Assembly (NCBI RefSeq): GCF_026210795.1
Contig: NC_089441.1
Location: 2,790,001-2,854,000 of the forward strand
Origin: Rhizophagus irregularis
Taxonomy: Eukaryota; Glomeromycota; Glomeromycetes; Glomerales; Glomeraceae
Direction: 5' to 3'
DNA: 64,000 nucleotides
Shown here: one piece after another, positions 606 through 24,511 of the stretch
Layout of the letters: the number at the start of each line of letters is the position of its first letter
Position numbering within the stretch: the stretch's first letter is position 1
Notes under the pieces: model-generated
Database searches by the model: none
What the model was told of the DNA's origin: nothing
Seen by the model: the letters and a program-made list of their open reading frames with translations, nothing else
Translations under genes and position numbers: made by a program

Positions 606-829
606 AGAACCCTGCTTACTTATAATAAAGGTCATTGTAGAAAATTGGCCCTTTACTGATAGTTTTTACCTTACTTTTTTCTTAAATTCTATTGGTTAAT
701 TAGCTAAAAGGAAAAAAATCATAACAATGTAACATAAAATTTCCTTTTATAGTAGAAACTGCAAAGAATTTTATATATGATTTTTACTTTAGGCTTGGGG
801 TGACCTATCTTATAAGTAAGCAGGATCCT
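606..829. mobile_element. hAT-type MITE, 224 bp, 8-bp TSD
   Basis: Flanked by the direct repeat ATTAGACT (598-605 and 830-837). The ends are inverted: AGAACCCTGCTTACTTATAA on the left, and AGGATCCTGCTTACTTATAA as the reverse complement of the right end. An 8-bp TSD is typical of the hAT superfamily. There is no coding capacity. A related terminus starts near 63642 at the other end of the window. Confidence 0.8.
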
Positions 830-929
830 ATTAGACTGCATCATCGTGAATTAGTGTGTACAGTTAAGTTGTATATTTTAACAAAGGGTTATAATATCCT
901 TCTAACGTTCCCTAAGAGGCTATTGGCAT

Positions 930-1436
930 CTCTATAAAAAAAAATATTACATTTAAAATATATTTAATTTTCTTTAAAATATATTTAATTTTCTTTAAAA
1001 TATACTTAATTTTCTTTAAAATATACTTAATTTTCTTTAAAATATACTTAATTTTCTTTAAAATATACTTAATTTTCTTTAAAATATACTTAATTTTCTT
1101 ATTTTATACTTAAAATATACTGAAAATTGAATTTTCGCAAAATTTGAATTAAATTGTATTTAATATATACTTAAAATATATTTAATTTACATTTAAATTT
1201 TGCCTATTTCAGTATATTTTAAGGATATTTAAAATAAGAATATTTAAGTATATTATTATATACTTAAATTATACTTAAATGATATTTAATTTTTGCCTAT
1301 TTTAGTATATTTTAAGTATAAAATAAAATTTTAAATATATTTTAAATATAAAATAAAATTTTAAATATATTTTAAATATAAAATAAAATTTTAAGTTTAT
1401 TTTAAGTATATTTTAGCAAAAATATTTTTTATAGGG
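930..1436. mobile_element. MITE-like element with AATATACTTAA tandem repeats
   Basis: Ends are inverted: CTCTATAAAAAA on the left, and CCCTATAAAAAA as the reverse complement of the right end. It lies inside R1 unit A between two copies of CAT, and unit B reads uninterrupted through GGCATGT at the homologous place. The TSD could be 3 bp (CAT) or 7 bp with one mismatch (GGCATCT/GGCATGT). The interior holds about eight copies of a 21-bp unit around TTTAAAATATACTTAATTTTC, followed by an inverted counterpart. The same repeat words recur near 40440-40490 and 47120-47280. Confidence 0.65.
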
Positions 1437-1827
1437 CATGTGCACAGTCTTGTCTTTAAGGTCACTACTATACCTTGGAGGAACTTCCTATTCAAATAGT
1501 CACTTCATGATACCGTTTGGAATCTTTAGGGACTAAATGGTTGTCTTAAATGATAAAGCTAAAGATGCAATATCTTTGTGGTAGTTTGACCTTCTATTAG
1601 GTCTTAGATCAACCAAGGTGTTTATGCACAAAACAGATAGTTCATGGTTATGGAATTCGATTCCCTACTCTTTGGGTCCTAATTGGTGATTCCTAGTGAT
1701 TGATACCTATCTAAGTAGTCATTACAAAGTATATTATTTGAGGTAAAAAACTGTATTATCGTTGTTGGGTAATTGTGGACTGTAGTGGCCTTTGAGTGAG
1801 ACTTCGTATCTAAAATAGTGGTATGGA

Positions 1828-2094
1828 TAATGTTACGATCTGGATGAATTCATCATTTGTTCAATTCAGTCTGAAAATAAATGGATGATCTGGATGAAAA
1901 TCTGGATTTAATTCAGATGAGAAAGTTATATGTACAATCAAAATGATTCAGATCCAATCTGTTAAAACATAGAGGTAACAGATAACGGATTGATCTGGAT
2001 GAGCAAAAAACAGATTCATAGATGATCCAGATGGGTTTCAAATCAGATAAATCTGCGGATTGATGAATTGACAGATTAACAGATCGCAACACTA
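1828..2094. mobile_element. hAT-type MITE made of GATCTGGATGAAT words
   Basis: Ends are TAATGTTACGATCTG and, as reverse complement of the right end, TAGTGTTGCGATCTG. The left flank GGTATGGA reappears on the right as GGTA-CTA-TGGA, meaning a TSD with a 3-bp interruption. The interior is largely degenerate copies of GATCTGGATGAAT and CAGATT on both strands. It sits at nearly the same point of R1 as the unrelated element at 14050-14430 in unit B. Confidence 0.65.
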
Positions 2095-2937
2095 GGTACT
2101 ATGGAAGGGTACTAAATAGTTGATGTTACCTGTAGAAAGTTCTCCATGACAGTAAGTATTTATTAGTAAGGTCATTAAATAATAATTGAATACTAGTATC
2201 ATGCAATGGGTATAAAGATAAGTAGGTAGTGTTCCAAAAAAAATCTGATCTGATTCGTATCCGCGGATCTGATCTGAAATGGATCGGATCAGATCAGCTT
2301 TTTTATGATCCGTGATTCGATCTGAATCAAAAAAATTTGATTTGTTTCAGATCGAATCGGATTAGATCAGCTATTTATTCAAATCGGATCAGATTGAATC
2401 AGATTCAAACAGATTTGGATCGAATCTGGATCAGATCTGAATCTTAAAAAATAAAAAATATTTTGCGCAACGTTTTTTATTAAGACAATTACAAACTGTT
2501 GCGAAACAGTTCATTTTAGTTAAATAAACCATTTCGCAACGGTTTATATTAAAACAATTTAAAAAACTGGTGCACAACAGTTTTTTTTAGTTAAATAAAC
2601 CATTTCGCAATAGTTTATATTAAAATATTTTAAAAAACTGTTGCGAAATAGTTCTTTTTAATTAAATAAACCGTTGTGAAATGGTTCTTTTTAATTAAAT
2701 AAACTATTTCGCAACGGTTCTTTTTAATTATCGCCATTTTTAAAATGGTGTATGCAATCAGTATGCATGTAAAAAATTCGATTTTGATTGTGATTATTCA
2801 AATGATCGACATCATGTGATCAAACAAAAAACTTAGCCAATAAAAATTTATCGATTTTTAATCATAAAATTATTATAGTTCGCGTCTATAATAATTCAAA
2901 GACGCGTTTTGCTTCTTTTTACGTTTTAAAGTTCATA

Positions 2938-4591
2938 ATGACCTTTCAAGAATACCTCATTGGCACTTGTCTTAGTTGCAAAAAATGCCTTTACTGTGGA
3001 GTTGAATTCAGTATTCAGAAAAAAATGTGTACATGTGATAAAACTATCAAACCAAGTACAAAAAACTGAACGGAACAAGTAAAAATTGCATTTACTCGAA
3101 TTTCAAAACCTACTTTACCACTGAAACAACGTGAATATATTCAAGAAAGCATAACTCGATTTGGTTATTCTTTAGATATCACTACAACCTTCAAATTTTC
3201 TTTTTGTCTTGCATGCAATAGCGCTTTTCAAAGAAAAAAGTCCAATACTAATTCAAAGTCTTCTACTCCATGCAAGATAAGCTTAGAATTTGATTCAAAT
3301 AGAAATAGCTCAGAAGATGATAAGCCAGCTCAAACAAGAAGCAATAGTATTGATTTGAATGAATCTGATGACAAAGATAACGATAATATTGAAATAAGTG
3401 AAAAATCAGATCATTTATTCAGATGCAGAACAAGTGATATCTTTTAACCTAATTATAAAACCTTTTACCGGTCCAGCATTACCATCTAAATGGATGGAAA
3501 TAGAAGTATCATCATTAGATGATATTCTTGCAGATATTCACCTTTGTGTTAAAAAACTAACTGGTAATAAAAATATCATGCATCCGGATTATTTAGTATC
3601 ATTTAAATCAGAAAAAGCTATAGGAGCTGGGACGCAACTAGTTGATTTGTAAGATTATAAAAAATTTCTTTTGGATTACAAAAAATTAACAGAAAAGAAT
3701 ACAAATATGGCAGTTATAATGTCTTTAAAAAATGATAAAAAGAAAAAGCAAAGAGGACGAAAGGTATACTAACTATTCAATTATAACATGTTTTTACAAA
3801 TGTAGCTATGTAAAATAATTGTATCATCTTTAAAATTTTTTAGGAAAATTTATATTCTGAAGATTCAGAAGATGAGAACATTGATTTGCAAAAAAAGAAA
3901 AGGAAGGAAATTCCAAAAGTAGATAATTTTTCTGAAATTTTACAACAAGAAGGACGTATAATTCAGGAATTAAGAAAACAATATAAATGTGACCAACATG
4001 ATGCATGCTTTGTTGATAATGGAAGACATATAAAGCTTACTGCAATGCATCTCCAATGCTGGACTAAGGAAATTGTAATTTTTCACTTTCTATGATCAAT
4101 TATTGAATAAAACTTTAATTAATATTATTTATTTTTAGATTCGAGGAACTACAGATAATACACAAATGCCTAATTTACCTATTTTTTCACAATCTAATAG
4201 CGTTAAAACATTTACATCTACAACTCCATCTACAACTTCAATGCCTATAGCTTCAAATTCAAATTTTAATACACCATTTTTTTTTGCTATTTCACCTCAA
4301 ATGTTTTCTTTTATGCAAAATCCAACTACAAATAATTCACCAAATTCACCATCAAATGTATTATCTTATCCAAGACAATCAGTTCCATCTCTTGATGAAT
4401 TTTTTATTAAATTAGACGAATCATTAGATGGTAATGAAGAGTTTACTACGAAATTTAAAGATATTTTTAAAGAAGAATGAATTTCTGTTAGTCAAATTTG
4501 TGATCTTACAGATATAGAATTCGATTAATTAGGTGTAAATAAAATAGGATGGCGTAAAGCATTCAGGGCTGTGGCAAAATCTTATAAATAA
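2938..4591 (+). pseudogene. Accessory transposon protein: Cys cluster N-terminus, SAM-like C-terminus (broken)
   Basis: Starts at ATG 2938 with a cysteine-rich segment (CLSCKKCLYCGVEF, then CTC, later CLACNSAF), suggesting a zinc-binding fold. It continues through an acidic linker, a ubiquitin-like/PB1-like stretch (KWMEIEVSSLDDILADI), a basic stretch, two probable introns (about 3764-3843 and 4072-4139), a Ser/Thr/Asn-rich region, and a C-terminal segment (PSLDEFFIKLDES ... VNKIGWRKAFRAVAKSYK) that looks like a SAM domain. Disabling changes seen: in-frame stops near 3067, 3649, 4478 and 4526, and a frameshift near 3410. Function is unknown. Its position inside the transposon suggests a role in target binding or regulation of the transposase; that is inference. 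It could instead be a captured host gene. Confidence 0.55.
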
Positions 4592-4726
4592 TCTAATCTT
4601 TTAATCAATTTTCTTATTGTGTAACAAATAATAATAAAAACTCTGCAAATTTTTTTCATATAATAATCAAATTTTATTTTTTGTAATATTCAAAAAAATT
4701 TATAAATTTTTGTCTATAAATTTATA

Positions 4727-5922
4727 CTACATATAAATTGAACTTTTGAAAAATGACTCAGCTATTAATGGAGTAATTTGAGAACATGCTATTAAAAGAG
4801 GATATTTAGAATCACTACATGAATTAACAAAATCTCTATATCTTTTTAAAAATGACTTTATAACAGAAAAACAGGTTTCAATAGGGTTAAAGTCAGGAGA
4901 ATAAGGAGGCAAAAATTCAACACGACCACCAAATGCTTCAATATAATCTATAAGATCGTCATCATGATGAATTCGTGCATTATCAAGTACAAGAACACTT
5001 TGTTCATTAGGATATGCATTCATTTGAGGTACCTAACATAAAAAAAACAATCGGTTATTACAATTGTAGTGATAATATTAACAAATAGTAGATTAAACTT
5101 AAAATTCAACATACCACATTTGAAATAACAAATTCCCTAAATTTTTCTTTTGTACAATTACCTTCCATTATATCCACTGCAATAATACCTTGTAAAGATA
5201 AAGCAGGTAATATTGTATATCGTATTCCTCGTACAAATACATTTTTTTTAGTAGCAAATATATTTTTAAGAGAATATCCATACCCACGAGATAAAGAGCG
5301 TTCATCTTTAGCAGCTTCATCCATAAATATAAGCTGTTCAGGTTTATAATTGCGTCCAACTTTTGCAATAAAAGTACTTCTGAGAAGTTCATTTCATTCA
5401 TAAGCTGTTCGATGTAACTGTATAAAATAAATTGCAATAAAACCCAAATAAATAAATATAACATAAACTAGAAGGAAATCTAAGGATTAAAATATACCTT
5501 TTTCCTGCTAATTCCACAATAAACTAAAGATCTCCAAAGAGTTGGGATTGAAATTAGTTTTCCTGTTTGTAATTCAAGTTCTCTTACTAATTCATCTAAA
5601 TACCAATCTACTTTATCTTTAACTAATTCTTGTAGTATCTAAATTGACAATGTAATTAGTAATATAAAGATACAAAAAAGATGCATTATATTCTTTTCTC
5701 ATTCACAATTACCTTCATTTCATTTCTAGTTAGTGTTTTATGGCATCATGGTAGTTTTTGCCAAGGATTCACTACAGTTCCCCATTGTACATATATTTGC
5801 AGAACTTTATCAACAGTGGCTTTACTTATATATAATAACTCAGCAATTTTTTTTCGTCTATGACCATCATGATAAAGATAAACAACTCTCCACTTCAGGT
5901 CTTCGCTGAAAGAACGAGCCAT
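4727..5922 (-). pseudogene. IS630/Tc1-type DDE transposase, degenerate
   Basis: Starts at ATG 5922 (MARSFSEDLKWRVVYLY) with a helix-turn-helix (KKIAELLYISKATVDKVLQIY). Probable introns follow near 5708-5642, 5500-5420 and 5114-5032. The catalytic DDE core reads MDEAAKDERS (first Asp), VLVLDNARIHHDD (second Asp) and PPYSPDFNPIE (Glu), the usual D-D-E order of DDE_3 transposases. Stop codons interrupt it after WQKLP and after LHRTAYE, so this copy is probably inactive although the catalytic residues are intact. In active form it would cut and join at TA, which agrees with the TA borders of the element. Confidence 0.85.
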
Positions 5923-6482
5923 TAGAAATAAAATATGAAAATCTTTTAAAATTGAAAAATCTCTAAAAAATCGCGAACTTTAAGCGAAAAAAACATCAAA
6001 TAGTACACAATAACTTGGCCTAAAACTCAACAAGAAGCCGTAAACAAACGTAACAATACAAATATTGCTGAATAATCTTAAATATTCACCAAAAAAGACG
6101 CGTTTAATTTATGAAATTTAAAATATTCGGCAAAAATTTAAAAATTTTTTTTATTTGATGATCAGCATTGCATATACCATTTTGAAAACGGCAATAAATA
6201 AACCGTTTCGCAACGGTTCTTTTTAATTAAATAAACTGTTTCGCAACAGTTCTTTTTAATTAAATAAACCATTTTGCAACGGTTTATATTAAAACAATTT
6301 AAAAACCGTTGCGCAACGGTTCTTTTTAGTTAAATAAACTGTTTAAAAAACTGTTGTGAAATGGTTCTTTTTAGTTAAATAAACCATTTTGCAATGGTTT
6401 ATATCAAAATGTTTTAAAAAACCGTTGTGAAACGGTTCTTTTCAATTAAATAAACTATTTCGCAACAGTTTATATTAAAATC

Positions 6483-6726
6483 TAAGGTTGTTTGTCTAAA
6501 CCTCTTCAAAATCCTACGATTAGTTTCGTCAAAATTTTACTATAGATTTATTATAGTTTCAGCAGAGTTTCGGCAGTTTCAGCATTTATAATAAATTTTG
6601 GCAGTTTCACCTTTCTCCAAAGTTTCGCCAGTTTTTTAATATAACTTTAATATAGTTTCGGCAGAATTTCGCTTTTCGGCGAAACGCCATCTTGCCTAAA
6701 CCCCTAGGTTTCGGCAAGCAATCTTA
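6483..6726. mobile_element. 244-bp hAT-type MITE, copy 1
   Basis: 8-bp TSD TTAAAATC (6475-6482, 6727-6734). Ends begin TAAGGTTG and finish CAATCTTA. The interior repeats the words GTTTCGGCAG and TTTCGCC. Same length and sequence family as 18982-19225 (opposite orientation) and 24866-25109. It is inserted in the hairpin array, so it is younger than that element. Confidence 0.85.
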
Positions 6727-6899
6727 TTAAAATCATTAAAAAAACCGTTGTGAAATGGTTTTTTTAGTTAAATAAACTGTTTTGCAATGGTTTATATTAA
6801 AATATTTTAAAAAACTGTTGCAAAATGGTCCTTTTTAATTAAATAAACCGTTTTGCAACGGTTTATATTAAAATCGTTAAAAAAACCGTTGCAAAACAG

Positions 6900-7490
6900 T
6901 TTTTTTAGTTAAATAAGCTGTTGCAAAACGGTTTTTTTAGTTAAATAAGCTGTTGCAAAACGGTTTTTTTAGTTAAATAAGCTGTTGCAAAACGGTTTTT
7001 TTAGTTAAATAAGCTGTTGCAAAACGGTTTTTTTAGTTAAATAAGCTGTTGCAAAACGGTTTTTTTAGTTAAATAAGCTGTTGCAAAACGGTTTTTTTAG
7101 TTAAATAAGCTGTTGCAAAACGGTTTTTTTAGTTAAATAAGCTGTTGCAAAACGGTTTTTTTAGTTAAATAAGCTGTTGCAAAACGGTTTTTTTAGTTAA
7201 ATAAGCTGTTGCAAAACGGTTTTTTTAGTTAAATAAACTGTTGCAAAACGGTTTTTTTTAGTTAAATAAGCTGTTGCAAAACGGTTTTTTTTAGTTAAAT
7301 AAACTGTTGCAAAACGGTTTTTTTTAGTTAAATAAACTGTTGCAAAACGTTTTTTTTTTAGTTGAATAAACTGTTGCAAAACGGGTTTTTTTAGTTAAAT
7401 AAACTGTTGCAAAACGGTTTTTTTTAGTTAAATAAACTGTTACAAAACAATTTTTTTTAGTTAAATAAACTGTTGCAAAACGGTTTACAT
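6900..7490. repeat. Homogeneous 32-33-bp tandem array
   Basis: About 17 near-identical units of the pattern GCTGTTGCAAAACGG, T7, AGTTAAATAA. It lies within the larger hairpin-array element, and its neighbours are more diverged, so this block was amplified recently. It encodes an 11-residue peptide repeat on the minus strand only because the 33-bp variant is a multiple of three. There are no spacers of unique sequence, so it is not a CRISPR array. Confidence 0.9.
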
Positions 7491-8544
7491 TAAAATCATT
7501 AAAAAAACTGTCGCGAAATAGTTCTTTTTAATTAAATAAACTATTTCACAACGGTTTATATTAAAATATTTTAAAAAACCGTTGCGAAATGGTTCTTTTT
7601 AATTAAATAAACTGTTGCGAAACAGTTCTTTTTAATTAAATAAACCGTTGCGAAATGGTTCTTTTAATTAAATAAACCGTTGCAAAATAGTTCTTTTTAG
7701 TTAAATAAACCATTTCGCAATGGTTCTTTTTAATTAAATAAACCGTTTCGCAACAGTTTACATTAAATTAAAATCATTAAAAAAAACTGTTGCAAAATGG
7801 TTCTTTTTAGCTAAATAAACCATTTCACAACAGTTTATACTAAAACAATTTAAAAAACCGTTGCGAAATGGTTCTTTTTAGTTAAATAAACCATTTCGCA
7901 ACAGTTTATATTAAAATGATTTAAAAAACTGTTTCGCAACGGTTTATATTAAAATAATTTAAAAAACTGTTTCGCAACGGTTTATATTAAAATAATTTAA
8001 AAAACTGTTTCGCAACGGTTTATATTAAAATAATTTAAAAAACTATTGTGAAATGGTTCTTTTTAGTTAAATAAACCATTTTGCAATGGTTTATATTAAA
8101 ATATTTTAAAAAACTGTTGCGAAACAATTCTTTTTAATTAAATAAACCGTTTTGCAACAGTTTATATTAAAACAATTTAAAAAACCATTTCGCAACAGTT
8201 TTTTTCGTTTAAATTAAAATAAAAAATGTTTCGCAATGTTTTTTATTAAATAAATCTTTAAAAAAATATTGCGAAACATTTTTTTAACTTCTGATTCAGA
8301 TCGGATTCAGACTGGATCAGTTTTATCTGAATTGAATTCAAACCGAATCGAATCAAGCTTATTTCGGATTTAGATCAGATCGAATCCAATTATTTTTGAT
8401 CTGAATTTGGATCAGATCAAATCCAACTTTTTTTGATCTGAATTCAGATCAGATCGGATTCATCTCAAATCTGATCTGATTCGATCTGTTCAGAATACTA
8501 TAAGTAGGTGGCGTATTTCTAGTTTCAGATTAGCCTTAAAAGTA

Positions 8545-14430: not shown

Positions 14431-16079
14431 TATGGAAGGGTACTAAATAGTTAATATTACCTATCAAAAATCCTTTATAAAAGTAGTGCTCAATCTTTAA
14501 GGGTTATAAAATAAATTGAGTATTATGAGTAGGTGACGTATTAGGATCCAAAGAATACATATAATACTGAGATCTAATTTTGTATAAACTTACTATGTAA
14601 TTTCTTAATAAGTCATATGTTTGAAATTGTATAACCAAATAGCAGTTACGCAAAAAGTCAGATTTTTATTTGTATAACAATAATGATTTTTTACTATAAA
14701 TAAGATTTCATTTTGTATAACAGATATTAAAATTTTTTTTATATACGTTTAAAATTTTTTATTTTTTTTATTTTTTGTTTTAAGAAATTTTTAAAATATT
14801 TTTTAATAAAGAGTTTTTTTATTTATTTTAAAAAACACTTGAAATATTTTTTAATAGAAATTGTTTTTTGTTTGAGAAGTTTTTAGAGGTTCGTTTAAAA
14901 ACATTTTTTTAATAAAAATGATGAAATTTTTTTAAAATTCATTTATAAAATTAAAAAAAATACATTTTATTACATATCTCGGCATCCAGTGATCATAGAG
15001 AAATAAAACACAGCTTGTTAGATTTGTCTCAATATGATGAGTTGAATGGTGGTAGTTCATATTTCTAGGTACAATAAATGCCAAATTATGTGATAAAATG
15101 TAAAAATGCACAGTAGATGAAATACAAAGTGCCGATGTGTGGTATAGCTCAACACCTATCACACCTAAAAACACGAAACTACTACCATTTGATTCGTCTT
15201 GTCAAGATGAATCCAATGAGCTGTGTTTCATCTTTTTACAATCACTAAGTGGTGAAATACATAACAAAATGTATTTTCTTTTATTTTGTAGTATACGTCC
15301 AAATTTTTGCATAAAACTTATTATATTATACATATTGGGCATTAATATCTATAAGGTATTTAAAATTTTAACATGCAATTTTGTTTAAAAATTTTATTTA
15401 AGTTATTTTTTAATAATTATTTTTAAAGAAATTTTTTAAGTATTTGTTAGAACACTAGTCAAAATAATAAAATTCGACCTTAATAAAATTTGGCCTATAT
15501 TCGACCAAATTCAAAAAAAATTCGACCTAAGTATATATTCGACATTGTTGAATTATGGTCGAATAGCATATTATAAAAAAATATGTAATGTGTTGATCAC
15601 GTCGCGTCGCGTATCACTCGTGTACCATGTAATTAAGCACGATTAAAAGTTTAATTTAAACTTTCCTTCATGCTTTTTTCTTTGTCCTTCCCTTTTTCTT
15701 CGTCCTTCCCCTTTCCCTTGTTCCTTCTTTCACTTTTTTAAAAAACTTTTATAAAGTTTATTATATTTTATTTTTTTTTTAGGAAATTGGCTCCGAAGTT
15801 TAATATTCTAATAAACATTATTAACTTTTCTTTTTTTTTCGGAATGCATTAGGAACGGCCTCTTGGAACGATTTTGTGACTAAGAATGTGAAAAATGTGG
15901 AAGGTTAGTATATTCGGTTTTTTTTAAAAAAAATTTTATTATTGTTTTTTACTTACCTTATTCTTATTTCTTTAGGAACGGTCTCTTCTTTTGGGATGGT
16001 GATCGGGAATAGAGGTAAATGGGAAGTAGGTTAGCGGGTGTATTGGTGTGTTTATTGTAATTAAGAAACGTTCTAACGT

Positions 16080-16470
16080 TTCTCTTCTTTTTGTAGGATA
16101 CTATTAAGCAAGCCGAAAGAACTAAGATTCGTCATAAGTATTACGAATCTTATTTTTTTTTCATTTTTTTTAATAAAGTGTAACGGTTCACTAACCGTTC
16201 TTATTTTTTTTATAGGTTTCAGTGGGCTTCTGACGAATGGAGGGACCAAGATTCGTAAGTAAGTACGAATCTTGGTTGTTTTTCTTTTTTTTTTAAGATT
16301 GTGAACGGTTACTAACTGTTCATTTTCTTTTTTTAGGTTTCGGGTGTCTCCAACGAATGGAAGAACCAAGATTCGTAAGTAAATACGAATCTTGGTTGTA
16401 TTTTTGTTTTTTTTTTATAATTATAGAACGGTTTACTAACCGTTCTTTTTTTAGGTCTCGGGTGGGCTTC
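16080..16470 (+). repeat. Tandem exon-like cassettes with splice signals
   Basis: Three to four copies of a roughly 115-bp cassette. Each has a branch-point-like ACTAAC in a small palindrome (AACGGTTTACTAACCGTT), a T-rich tract ending in AG, a 34-39-nt exon-like segment ending CCAAGATTC, and the donor GTAAGT or a variant placed inside a second palindrome (CCAAGATTCGTAAGT .. TACGAATCTTGG). All sit on the same strand as the captured fragments. No protein family is recognised in the short segments. Confidence 0.65.
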
Positions 16471-16473
16471 TGA

Positions 16474-17420
16474 TGGATTTTGTGAGTATGAGTGAAGATG
16501 ATGCAGATTATGTTATTATATGAAAAACCTATTCGTGTCAATAAAGTAAGCGGAAACATTTGTTGGAGAAGAAGAACCTAATTGAGAAGTTAGTTTGGTT
16601 TTATTGTTTGCTGTGTAGCATTGATGCTTCGTCATATTATTATTAGGCAAACCAGATAATCAACAGAAGTTAATTGTCAAATCTGGAAAAGTCTCGAGTT
16701 CTATTAAACACGGCCAAAAATCTGAATTATCAATTTATGATGAAGCTGCGGCAAATCAACAAAATCACAGATTCTTAGTCACGCTTCAAAAAGAATAGAG
16801 TCTAGAGTGTGTGGGAACCCTCTTGGTGAAGGGCGTTTTGGTCGTGTTTATATTGCAAGAGAAAAAACAAGAAAATTGTTGCTATCAAGTAATATTTAAA
16901 AAGAGTTTCGAGAAAATATTATGATAGAACAACTAAAACGTGAAGTGGAGATTCAGTCGTATTTGAAATATCCTCAATACGTTCATGCGTGCGCTTTTGG
17001 TGTTATCGTACGGACTCCCAACTCCCAAGGTATTAATATAATAATCAAATATCAAATTTATTTTACATATTTAATTTTATTAAGTCAAAATATTTAATTT
17101 AGATTGCATGAGATCCCGATACCGGTAATAGTAAAGGGTATGGGTTTATTTCATATTATAATTTCGATTCTCAGATGCGGCAATTGATGCAATGAACGGG
17201 CAATTTTGAATAAACCAATTATTGTATCATACGCATTCAAAAAGGATGATAAAGGCGAAAGAAATGAAAGTGCTGCAACTTCTGAATCGAATATATTACT
17301 TTCGATGGGTGACTATTTTTTTTTATTGGCATACCTTAGAACGGTTATTGGCAGCCCAAGTGAAGAAAATCAAAGTCTTTGATTGCAGATGTTCGTCCAT
17401 CTACTGCATGCGCCAGGGAC
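16474..17420 (+). pseudogene. Captured SF3B4-like (U2 snRNP RRM protein) fragments
   Basis: Two separated pieces resemble splicing factor 3B subunit 4. The first (16474-16560) gives SEDDADYVII then KPIRVNKVSGN, like the end of the first RRM. The second (17101-17420) gives DPDTGNSKGYGFISYYNFD, then DAAIDAMNGQF, NKPIIVSYAFKKDDKGERNE and LERLLAAQ, which match the second RRM (RNP1 motif) and the segment after it. Frameshifts and a stop (after NGQF) separate the parts, and a kinase piece lies between the two. It is not a working gene. The open frame at 17222-17527 is out of register with the SF3B4 reading and is not separately annotated. Confidence 0.7.
16800..17020 (+). pseudogene. Captured Aurora-type protein kinase fragment
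   Basis: Reads GNPLGEGRFGRVYIAREKTRK (glycine-rich ATP loop GEGRFG), then, after a frameshift and stop, EQLKREVEIQSYLKYPQYVHA, which corresponds to the alpha-C helix region (conserved Glu in REVEIQ). Spacing and wording fit Aurora/Ipl1 kinases better than other families. The catalytic loop and activation segment are missing. It lies inside the CACTA element, between two SF3B4-like pieces, so it is cargo. Confidence 0.65.
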
Positions 17421-18981
17421 AAACACAACCATCGCTTAGACTATCTATGATAAACGGAGCGTCAGGAGTATTTTTATTTGATATGTTGTTTATCAAGAAA
17501 ATGGATATGAAATCTATTATAATATAATTTATTTACATTACAATGCTATATCACTTAATCATCTCCGAAACCTTCTTTCTCTCTTCCCCTCTCACCCTTC
17601 CCTCTCCTTTTTTGTTTTTCCCTGCCATTCCTCTATCTCTTACTTTTGTAGGACGTTTCCTTGAAATTTTCTTCAGCTTCGGTAGATTTCTTTAGTAGGA
17701 TGTGTAGATCAGGCGTCTTGGAATTGGGAAGTTTTTTTTTTTTATTATTAATTTTGATTTTTTTTATTAATTTTTTTTATCTTATAATTTGTAGAAATCA
17801 ACAGTTTCGCACTTCCCGGATCGAATTGGTAAGTTTTTCACTTAAAAACTTTTTCTAAAAAATTTTTTTTTTATTATTAATTAATTTTTTTATTGTTTTT
17901 TTTTGTAGTTTCGGCTTCCTTATCCTGGATGATAGTTTTTAAAGTTTTGTTTTTCCAAATTTTTATTTCAGATCGAACTTGGACTTTATTTTTTTTCTTT
18001 AGTTATAGTGAGATGACTTTTAACATTCGTTTTTTTCAAAGATGCGATCATGTGATTGTGAAATTGTGTATAATTATTATATATTAGATAGATGCTAATA
18101 TACATGTACTGTATATTTAAGTGTTTTAATAAATTAATAAATTTGAAATTGAAACTAAATTAATAAATAAATATTGAGACTTAAAATTTTGTGTCGATAA
18201 TCATCCGAACTGCGCCTCAATTTGACGCCACTATTAGACCTAAATTCAACCTAGTCAAATTTAGGTCAAATGGTAGTGTAATGATGGCCGAATTTTCTTT
18301 CCGAATTTGAGACGATTGGCACCCTAAATGCGCCCGAAAATTCGACCTCAATTTGACACAGGTTAGATCATCATTCGACCTATATTCGACCTGGTCAAAT
18401 TTAGGCTGAATTGTCCTTTTTCAACTAGTGGAATTTTTCAATAAAATTTATTTGAAATTTTTCTTTAAAAATTTTTTTTTATATAAACTCAGATTTATAA
18501 TTGTATAATTTATAATAAAATTTGAACTTATGTGATGATTTTGTATAAAGCTTCTAATAAAATTAGACGTATAAAGTTATATTAATATTTTGGGTCTGGA
18601 TCTGAGTTGTATATGTATTCTTCAGGGTCCTGGCGTATTCCTAGCTTCAGATCAGCCTAAAATGACTTGATGGCTTATATAAAGTTCTGTTTACCTGAGA
18701 AATTAAGACTCAGCAGTAGTATATTCTTCCTTAGGGATGATAGGATACTGACCTAATAATCAACCAAAAGAGATAAAAGGTCTACGTATGCTTACTATGA
18801 AAGTAAAAGGATAAAATTACCGATTCGATTTGTCTCAGTGAGACGATTCTAATAAGCTATGGTTAGTATGGTACATCTTTGTACAATTATTAGATGCTAA
18901 GTTATTTAATATATTCTTTATATAATTGTGATTATAAACAATTCTTTTTAATATAAGATTTTTGAAGATAGATGTGATAGT

Positions 18982-23402: not shown

Positions 23403-24511
23403 AGGACCCCGAAGAATACATATACAACTCAGATCCAGACCCAAAATATTAATATAACTTTATACGCCTAATTTTATTAGAAGTTTTATACAAAATCATC
23501 ACATAAGTTCAAATTTTATTATAAATTATACAATTATAAATCTGAGTTTATATAAAAAAAAATTTTTAAAGAAAAATTTCAAATAAATTTTATTGAAAAA
23601 TTCTAACAAATACTTAAAAAATTTCTTAAAAAACAACTATTAAAAAATAACTTAAATAAAATTTTTAAACAAAATTGCATGTTAAAATTTTAAATACCTT
23701 ATAGATATTAATGCCCAATATGTATAATATAGTAAGTTTTATGCAAAAATGTGTATACTACAAAATAAAAGAAAATACATTTTGTTATGTATCTTACCAC
23801 CCAGTGATCGTAAAAAGATGAAACACAGCTCGTTGGATTCGTCTTGACAAGACGAATCGAATGATAGTAGTTTCGTGTTTCTAGGTGTGATAGGTGTTGA
23901 GCTATACCACACATCGGCACTTTGTATTTTCGTCCACTGTGCATTTTTACATTTTATCACATAACTCGGCATCTATCGCACCTAGAAATATGAAACTACC
24001 ACCATTCGACTCGTCGTATTGAGACGAATCTAACAAGCTGTGTTTCGTTTCTCTACGATCACTGGATGCCGAGATATGTAATAAAATGTATTTTTTTTTT
24101 AATTTTGTAAATGAATTTTAAAAAAATTTCATCATTTTTATTAAAAAAATGTCTTTAAACGAACTCCTAAAAACTTCTCAAACAAAAAACAATTTCTATT
24201 AAAAAATATTTCAAGTGTTTTTTAAAACAAATAAAAAAACTCTTTATTAAAAAATATCTTAAAAATTTCTTAAAACAAAAAATAAAAAAAATAAAAAATT
24301 TTAAACGTATATAAAAAAAATTTTAATATCCATTATATAAAATGAAAATCTTACTTATAGTAAAAATCATTATTGTTATACAAATAAAAATCTGACTTTT
24401 TGCGTAACTGCTATTTGGTTATACAATTTCAAACATATGACTTATTAAGAAATTACATAGTAAGTTTATACAAAATTAGATCCCAGTATTATATGTATTC
24501 TTCGGGGTCCT
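23403..24511. mobile_element. hAT-type element, complete reverse copy of 14543-18631 without the CACTA insert
   Basis: Ends AGGACCCCGAAGAATACATA are perfectly inverted. Flanks share only GAACC, so the TSD is partly lost. It aligns over its length with the interrupted copy and provides the empty site for the CACTA insertion near 23600-23612. It contains two palindromic modules (23836-23862, 24000-24030). Open frames across it are repeat-derived. Confidence 0.85.

Follow-up and report, generated by a model that had tools for sequence, protein, structure and literature searches.

A CACTA transposon of Rhizophagus irregularis carrying pieces of the SF3B4 and Aurora kinase genes

We describe here an element found at positions 15453-18430 of a 64,000-nucleotide stretch of the genome of the arbuscular mycorrhizal fungus Rhizophagus irregularis (assembly GCF_026210795.1, contig NC_089441.1, positions 2,790,001 to 2,854,000, forward strand). 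This whole stretch is referred to below as the window and its contig as C13; other contigs and the loci fetched from them carry C and L numbers respectively. The element is very probably a CACTA transposon of the non-autonomous kind with host gene DNA as its cargo, similar to the Pack-CACTA elements of plants. As read from its sequence and those of its relatives, the arms and a tandem array typical of a larger family took up part of the gene for the splicing factor SF3B4, some of this DNA was replaced by a piece of an Aurora kinase gene, and the resulting chimera now occupies two sites in the genome. A preliminary description of the window had proposed gene capture of the Pack-CACTA kind, and the proposal is supported by the presence of both donor-type genes in intact form, by a second copy with its own target-site duplication and by a relative that encodes a transposase. 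Host fragments with identifiable parents thus lie between the ends of the element and have been duplicated to new places, as in Pack-CACTA elements.

Borders and insertion site

The termini, the duplicated target and an empty site define 15453-18430 as a complete non-autonomous CACTA element, with the following landmarks in window coordinates.

15450..15452, no strand: target-site duplication GAA, left (empty site with a single GAA)
15453..15459, no strand: left terminus CACTAGT (sequence)
15453..16060, + strand: left arm with subterminal TTCGACC repeats (sequence comparison)
17561..18430, + strand: right arm, mostly common to loci L003-L013 (84-88%)
18424..18430, no strand: right terminus ACTAGTG (sequence)
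18431..18433, no strand: target-site duplication GAA, right (empty site with a single GAA)
23403..24511, - strand: copy of the host repeat carrying the empty site (single GAA near 23601-23603)

The terminal inverted repeats are of the CACTA type (CACTAGT and ACTAGTG), with 14 of the 20 terminal bases complementary, and both they and the GAA duplication lie exactly where the preliminary description had placed them. When the two flanks are fused at one GAA, the product matches the reverse complement of 23403-24511 near-perfectly through the junction, and the insertion was therefore precise. This segment had been described as a related element that shows the empty site; the empty site is real, but the segment is unrelated to the CACTA element and is instead a copy of the repeat that received the insertion. 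The repeat is about 1.1 kb long with inverted AGGACCCCGAAGAATACATAT ends, and it was a different copy of it that received the CACTA element. The first 75-78 bp of the left arm are similar to the left ends of other family members and to that of the transposase-encoding relative, and the last ~150 bp of the right arm have similar sequences at 39 other places, among the best 40 of 80 candidates (which include the element itself).

Captured gene pieces and their donors

Between the arms lie four pieces of SF3B4 DNA, with a single piece of Aurora kinase DNA between the first two.

16473..16650, + strand: SF3B4 piece A, exon 2 (end of RRM1) and intron 2 (parent L014 1794-1968)
16649..16979, + strand: Aurora kinase piece, N-terminal extension, ATP loop and alpha-C region (single parental exon)
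16970..17406, + strand: SF3B4 piece B, running from the second half of exon 3 through introns 3 and 4 and exon 4 (end of RRM2) into the start of exon 5
17422..17466, + strand: SF3B4 piece C, later part of exon 5
17487..17562, + strand: SF3B4 piece D, region downstream of the coding exons

The coordinates of the Aurora piece and piece B overlap because the right junction could not be placed to the base. That the pieces come from these two genes, as had been proposed, is borne out by matches to solved structures, the best being to SF3B4 for the SF3B4 pieces (E-value 5.9e-5) and to Aurora A for the Aurora piece (E-value 1.2e-5). A Pfam search with four pieces gave nothing significant (best E-value 0.05, to unrelated families), because the pieces are short and broken. 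Their broken state, also recognized earlier, takes several forms: piece A has one internal deletion and one insertion relative to the gene, piece B carries a TGA nonsense change, and the Aurora piece is frameshifted, with 51 nt (16672-16722) identical to the intact gene. In one respect the earlier assignment has to be corrected, since NKPIIVSYAFKK, which had been taken to open RRM2, is the end of that domain; RRM1 is represented in the element by its end and RRM2 by its second half. As the pieces are about 8% diverged as well as broken, no joint protein is to be expected from them.

A search for the parental genes, suggested by the preliminary description, located intact versions of both elsewhere in the genome. 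Locus L014 (C2) holds an intact SF3B4 gene, whose five joined exons form an open frame of 283 residues (the last coding part excluded) with two RRM domains; among solved structures it matches splicing factor 3B subunit 4 best (5z56; E-value 3.7e-108). The intact Aurora kinase gene in L021 (C27) is a single open frame of 386 residues from the Met used, which matches Pkinase with an E-value of 5.4e-78 and has an Aurora kinase as its best solved-structure match (E-value 1.1e-100). There are also decayed Aurora kinase copies at L019 (C16) and L022 (C19).

A second copy of the chimera

When the genome was searched (146,748,485 bases in 32 contigs), a second full-length copy of the chimera was found on C18 among the best 40 of 438 candidates; looking for other copies had been suggested in the preliminary description. 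It has its own GAA duplication and lies within flanks unrelated to those on C13. The two copies differ by only 8 substitutions in 2,941 aligned bases (0.27%), together with one gap of 30 bases and eight gaps of 1-2 bases, and such slight divergence at two unrelated sites indicates that the patchwork moved recently as one unit.

A partial third copy, L002 (C30), has the left arm, array units and SF3B4 DNA of the exon 2 region; the Aurora piece starts here too but breaks off at a sequence found repeatedly across the genome. We considered whether a third captured gene begins here and rejected it: the sequence following the Aurora start matches many places (68 matches listed, from the best 40 of 746) and is for this reason read as an inserted dispersed repeat rather than a capture. 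A Pfam search with the frame that extends beyond the Aurora start gave nothing significant.

Order of the captures and decay of the cargo

In addition to the copies within the C13 and C18 elements, six SF3B4 copies are present in four loci: L015 (two), L016 (two), L017 (C6) and L018 (C1). All eight carry the same Arg-to-stop change (AGA to TGA) at parent position 2178, which is not in the intact gene. At 11 positions with letters in at least five copies they differ alike from the gene, and the silent and noncoding ones among these may have arisen in the gene itself. Downstream of the gene, three copies share an end at parent base 3219, and upstream of the ATG two start five bases apart (1514 and 1519). 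On the strength of the common nonsense change and the common end points, SF3B4 was probably captured in one event of about 1.7 kb, and the retained introns indicate that genomic DNA rather than a retrocopy was taken up. The six C6 and C1 copies adjoin pieces of CACTA arm or array, and no paired CACTA ends were found for them. In L015, a CACTA right end abuts one SF3B4 copy, which is inverted relative to the other copy at that locus.

The Aurora piece came second, because Aurora DNA is absent from exon 3 of all four other SF3B4 copies that were aligned (one in L015, both in L016, and L018; the L015 copy has a deletion there and L017 is without the region). The piece, about 330 bp long, replaced about 80 bases of SF3B4 in the first half of exon 3. 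Two bases are shared at its left junction, and a 5-base insertion lies near the right junction, which is not placed to the base. The C13 copy differs from the SF3B4 gene at 55 of 686 ungapped positions and from the Aurora gene at 24 of 279, so that, judged by divergence, the cargo is old relative to the 0.27% between the two chimeras.

The family and a transposase partner

Elements with paired ends (at least 13 of 20 bases matching) number 13 in the fetched stretches, these being the C13 element and 12 relatives, of which all but L004 have exact 3-bp duplications. The count omits L005, L006, L008, L012 and L013, where a right arm is present with no end pair in the fetched stretch, and three pairings in L016, L020 and L025 that were taken as chance. 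Of the 13, only the C13 and C18 elements contain the SF3B4 and Aurora DNA; the other 11 are built chiefly from a left part, an array and a right part, with stretches of ~150-500 bp that are unmatched to the C13 arms and arrays and are mostly common between members. Elements behind the 40 right ends that were scored (of 80 candidates) may hold further captures.

A plausible source of transposase is L025 (C12), a 7.2-kb element (723-7929) with the target-site duplication ACG. It contains an open frame of 866 residues that matches Transposase_21 (tnp2) with an E-value of 3.9e-11, and open frames on its other strand are a candidate second gene. Its first 78 bp are 82% and its last 156 bp 92% identical to those of the C13 element. 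We note that a second copy of an L025-type element is present in L026 (C27), which was partly fetched, the part obtained not reaching the left end. A search of species genomes with the L025 transposase gave one relative (46% identity), in L036 (LXRJ01000142.1), a contig deposited as Candidatus Glomeribacter gigasporarum that is possibly DNA of the fungal host. Plavaka transposases (PF18759) were considered as an alternative partner and rejected: when their 123 genome matches were compared by eye with the right-end places, the sole match less than 10 kb from a right end fell outside the element.

Origin of the chimera

The sequences document much of the history directly. The family has the layout of left arm, intron-like unit array and right arm. 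One branch contains SF3B4 gene DNA, introns included, between the array and the right arm, and deletions and stops have built up in it. The Aurora piece took the place of the first half of exon 3, and the chimera is now present, with target duplications, on C13 and C18. The mechanism is more conjectural: the gene DNA may have entered by break repair or template switching within an element, and a transposase like that of L025, supplied in trans, presumably moves the chimera. The passengers would yield no protein and behave as neutral cargo.

Several observations fit this history less well. The Aurora donor is uncertain, since in a comparison of 279 sites the piece stands alone at 15, sides with the C16 copy and not the intact gene at 9, and sides with the intact gene and not the C16 copy at 8; it also has a one-base deletion in common with the C16 copy. 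Just two complete chimeras were found among the best 40 of the 438 candidates, GAA is the target duplication of both, and the L025 transposase is tied to the non-autonomous elements by shared ends alone. Differences between the C13 copy and the SF3B4 gene are rarer in coding than in noncoding DNA (25/405 versus 30/281), and third codon positions differ more than the others in both L016 copies (16/229 versus 10/227 and 6/232 in L016a; 24/188 versus 10/185 and 10/187 in L016b). Constraint on the intact gene can explain both the lower coding rate and the third-position excess; constraint on the SF3B4 copies themselves is conceivable.

The coding bias also bears on the idea that the captured pieces have been exapted. 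It is possible that RNA of the element, partly spliced, could yield chimeric or small RNAs matching both intact genes, and such RNAs might act on SF3B4 and Aurora and be kept by selection. The longest stretches identical to the intact genes (51 nt for Aurora, 34 and 33 nt for SF3B4) would suit small-RNA pairing, and splice-like motifs persist in the SF3B4 introns and the array. Nevertheless, we consider exaptation improbable: codon positions of the C13 SF3B4 copy are hit evenly (6/133, 10/136 and 9/136), deletions and frameshifts disrupt both genes, constraint on the intact gene can account for the lower coding rate, and the 11 other paired-end elements are without either gene. Still less probable is that segmental duplication rather than transposition produced the two copies. 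GAA does adjoin the ends in both, but homology between C13 and C18 stops at the termini on both sides, the ~1 kb of flank on each side giving only matches of 18-43 bp, and the host repeat of C13 also occurs in an unoccupied copy. Finally, the view that old SF3B4 and Aurora host pseudogenes stayed in place while only CACTA ends inserted around them, which the preliminary description had named as a finding that would overturn capture, agrees with the degraded, ~8% diverged state of the pieces but is refuted by the empty site with one GAA and by the scarcely diverged C18 copy, which lies at an unrelated site and has a target duplication of its own.

An intron-like hairpin array

Between the left arm and the SF3B4 DNA is a tandem array, at 16064-16454, that the preliminary description did not mention.

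16064..16083, + strand: hairpin with a CTAAC branch-point motif, then a pyrimidine run and AG
16117..16450, + strand: tandem array of 122-bp exon- plus intron-like units, 2.7 copies (splice motifs, hairpins)
16255..16336, + strand: intron-like unit GTAAGT...AG (hairpin 16245-16276 has the 5′ splice site at its apex)
16375..16454, + strand: intron-like unit (5′ splice-site hairpin 16362-16399, branch-point hairpin 16423-16448)

Tandem units of ~120 bp with splice-like motifs are found inside all 13 paired-end elements, the arrays other than those of C13 and C18 being in L003, L004, L007, L009-L011, L020, L024 and L027-L029. Parsing by splice motifs alone (a GTAAG-type start, CTAAC/T, a pyrimidine run and AG, within 60-110 nt) gave 144 units in the array-bearing loci, with a median length of 85.5 nt. 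Perfect stems of 8 bp or more occur at the 5′ splice site in 96 of the 144 units, at the branch point in 88 and at both in 65 (L002, L018 and L036 belong to neither the array set nor the control set). Counting distinct sequences, hairpins occur in 74 of 119 at the 5′ splice site, as against 7 of 2,380 mononucleotide shuffles, and in 48 of 103 at the branch point, as against 5 of 2,060. Outside the arrays the parser found one unit in the rest of the window and four in seven other loci, too few for a strong control; among these five there is a single hairpin at a branch point and none at a 5′ splice site.

In an alignment of 40 of the 119 distinct 5′ splice-site sequences, pairing was kept in 88.6% of cells and both sides had changed in 7 of 14 pairs, which 6 of 500 shuffles reached. 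The covariation score was 0.169, compared with 0.100 for shuffles (SD 0.011; none of 500 as high) and at most 0.077 for slid versions, figures that kinship among the sequences can inflate and that conversion between palindrome arms could mimic. For the branch-point hairpins 35 sequences were aligned, the covariation count covering the 5′ splice-site hairpin only. Folded together with its neighbours, one unit outperforms 200 of 200 shuffles (z -4.7). Two Rfam matches were below gathering scores and were taken as chance.

The exact core of the 5′ splice-site hairpin has 531 matches in the genome, and its reversed control has none. At the six core sites that were fetched (five with a solitary match and one with two), all matches lie inside arrays, and we therefore reject the possibility that the hairpin units are single-copy introns of host genes; a CACTA right end is present in one of the six stretches.

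CACTA elements often contain tandem repeats, and there is a substantial chance, if somewhat below even, that the array is no more than a satellite-like tandem repeat, with splice-like motifs and hairpins that serve no function. Consistent with this, a search of the genome for a spliced exon-exon junction of the array (one consensus, up to 3 mismatches) found none, with splicing itself still possible. Moreover, the joined array exons have a stop-free frame in just one of the 13 elements (L024, 206 codons); the other 12 have at least one stop per frame, partly from mis-parsed introns. A simple satellite accounts less readily for hairpins that are far above shuffles at both motifs and for compensatory changes in the 5′ splice-site hairpin that exceed both controls. 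A more speculative proposal, which we think rather unlikely, is that the family has a built-in array of mini-introns, with the 5′ splice site and the branch point each held at a conserved hairpin tip. Stepwise removal of these from RNA running through the element might trim transposon RNA or hide it from host silencing, and captured exons behind the array might be spliced to array exons. If true, this would be a new transposon use of the splicing machinery and a ready-made exon trap.

Comparison with known systems

The closest known counterparts are the Pack-CACTA or Pack-TYPE elements of plants, which are non-autonomous, have CACTA-type ends and contain fragments of coding genes (PMC8903248). 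As described there, the fragments sometimes come from several loci and related autonomous elements exist, as for the C13 element, which differs in its fungal host, its nested capture and its hairpin intron-like array. A capture model recounted in PMC13317346 invokes aberrant excision of neighbouring elements. Tgm-Express1 of soybean is likewise a CACTA element with several host gene fragments, five in all, and resides in an intron of a host gene (PMC1947982). Its transcripts were observed, and it offers a model for the splicing of such pieces; the C13 element, in contrast, has two donor genes and is known from sequence alone. Among fungi, histone H3 was captured and amplified by a hAT transposon in Pseudocercospora fijiensis (PMC6710886), also a case of a housekeeping gene in a DNA transposon with inactivated copies and an intact original, although it involves a hAT element and one gene, and inactivation was attributed to RIP. 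The animal Pack-TIRs hold host DNA within terminal-inverted-repeat elements, the multicopy ones being ascribed to template switching followed by transposition (PMC8277862); these are animal elements, and the available part of that account mentions no intron-like arrays.

Gene capture by CACTA elements is thus known from plants; the nested two-gene cargo, the fungal host and the hairpin arrays are what differ here. No description of CACTA gene capture in fungi or in Rhizophagus, or of hairpin intron arrays, was found in the titles and abstract starts searched, most subscription journals being outside that coverage, and the hairpin intron arrays may be new. Introner-like elements, which are single introns of host genes, also consist of repeated intron-like sequences with internal complementarity, but the units described here are in tandem arrays (13 of 13 paired-end elements and 6 of 6 further sites). 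Similar features are reported for fungal symmetrical stwintrons (PMC8469720).

The C13 element offers a case in an arbuscular mycorrhizal fungus that can be traced stepwise, from two donor-type genes through two successive captures and the decay of the cargo to recent movement of the chimera. It is thus a clean case for asking whether such elements shuffle exons in these fungi, and the hairpin arrays raise the separate question of how transposons use splicing.

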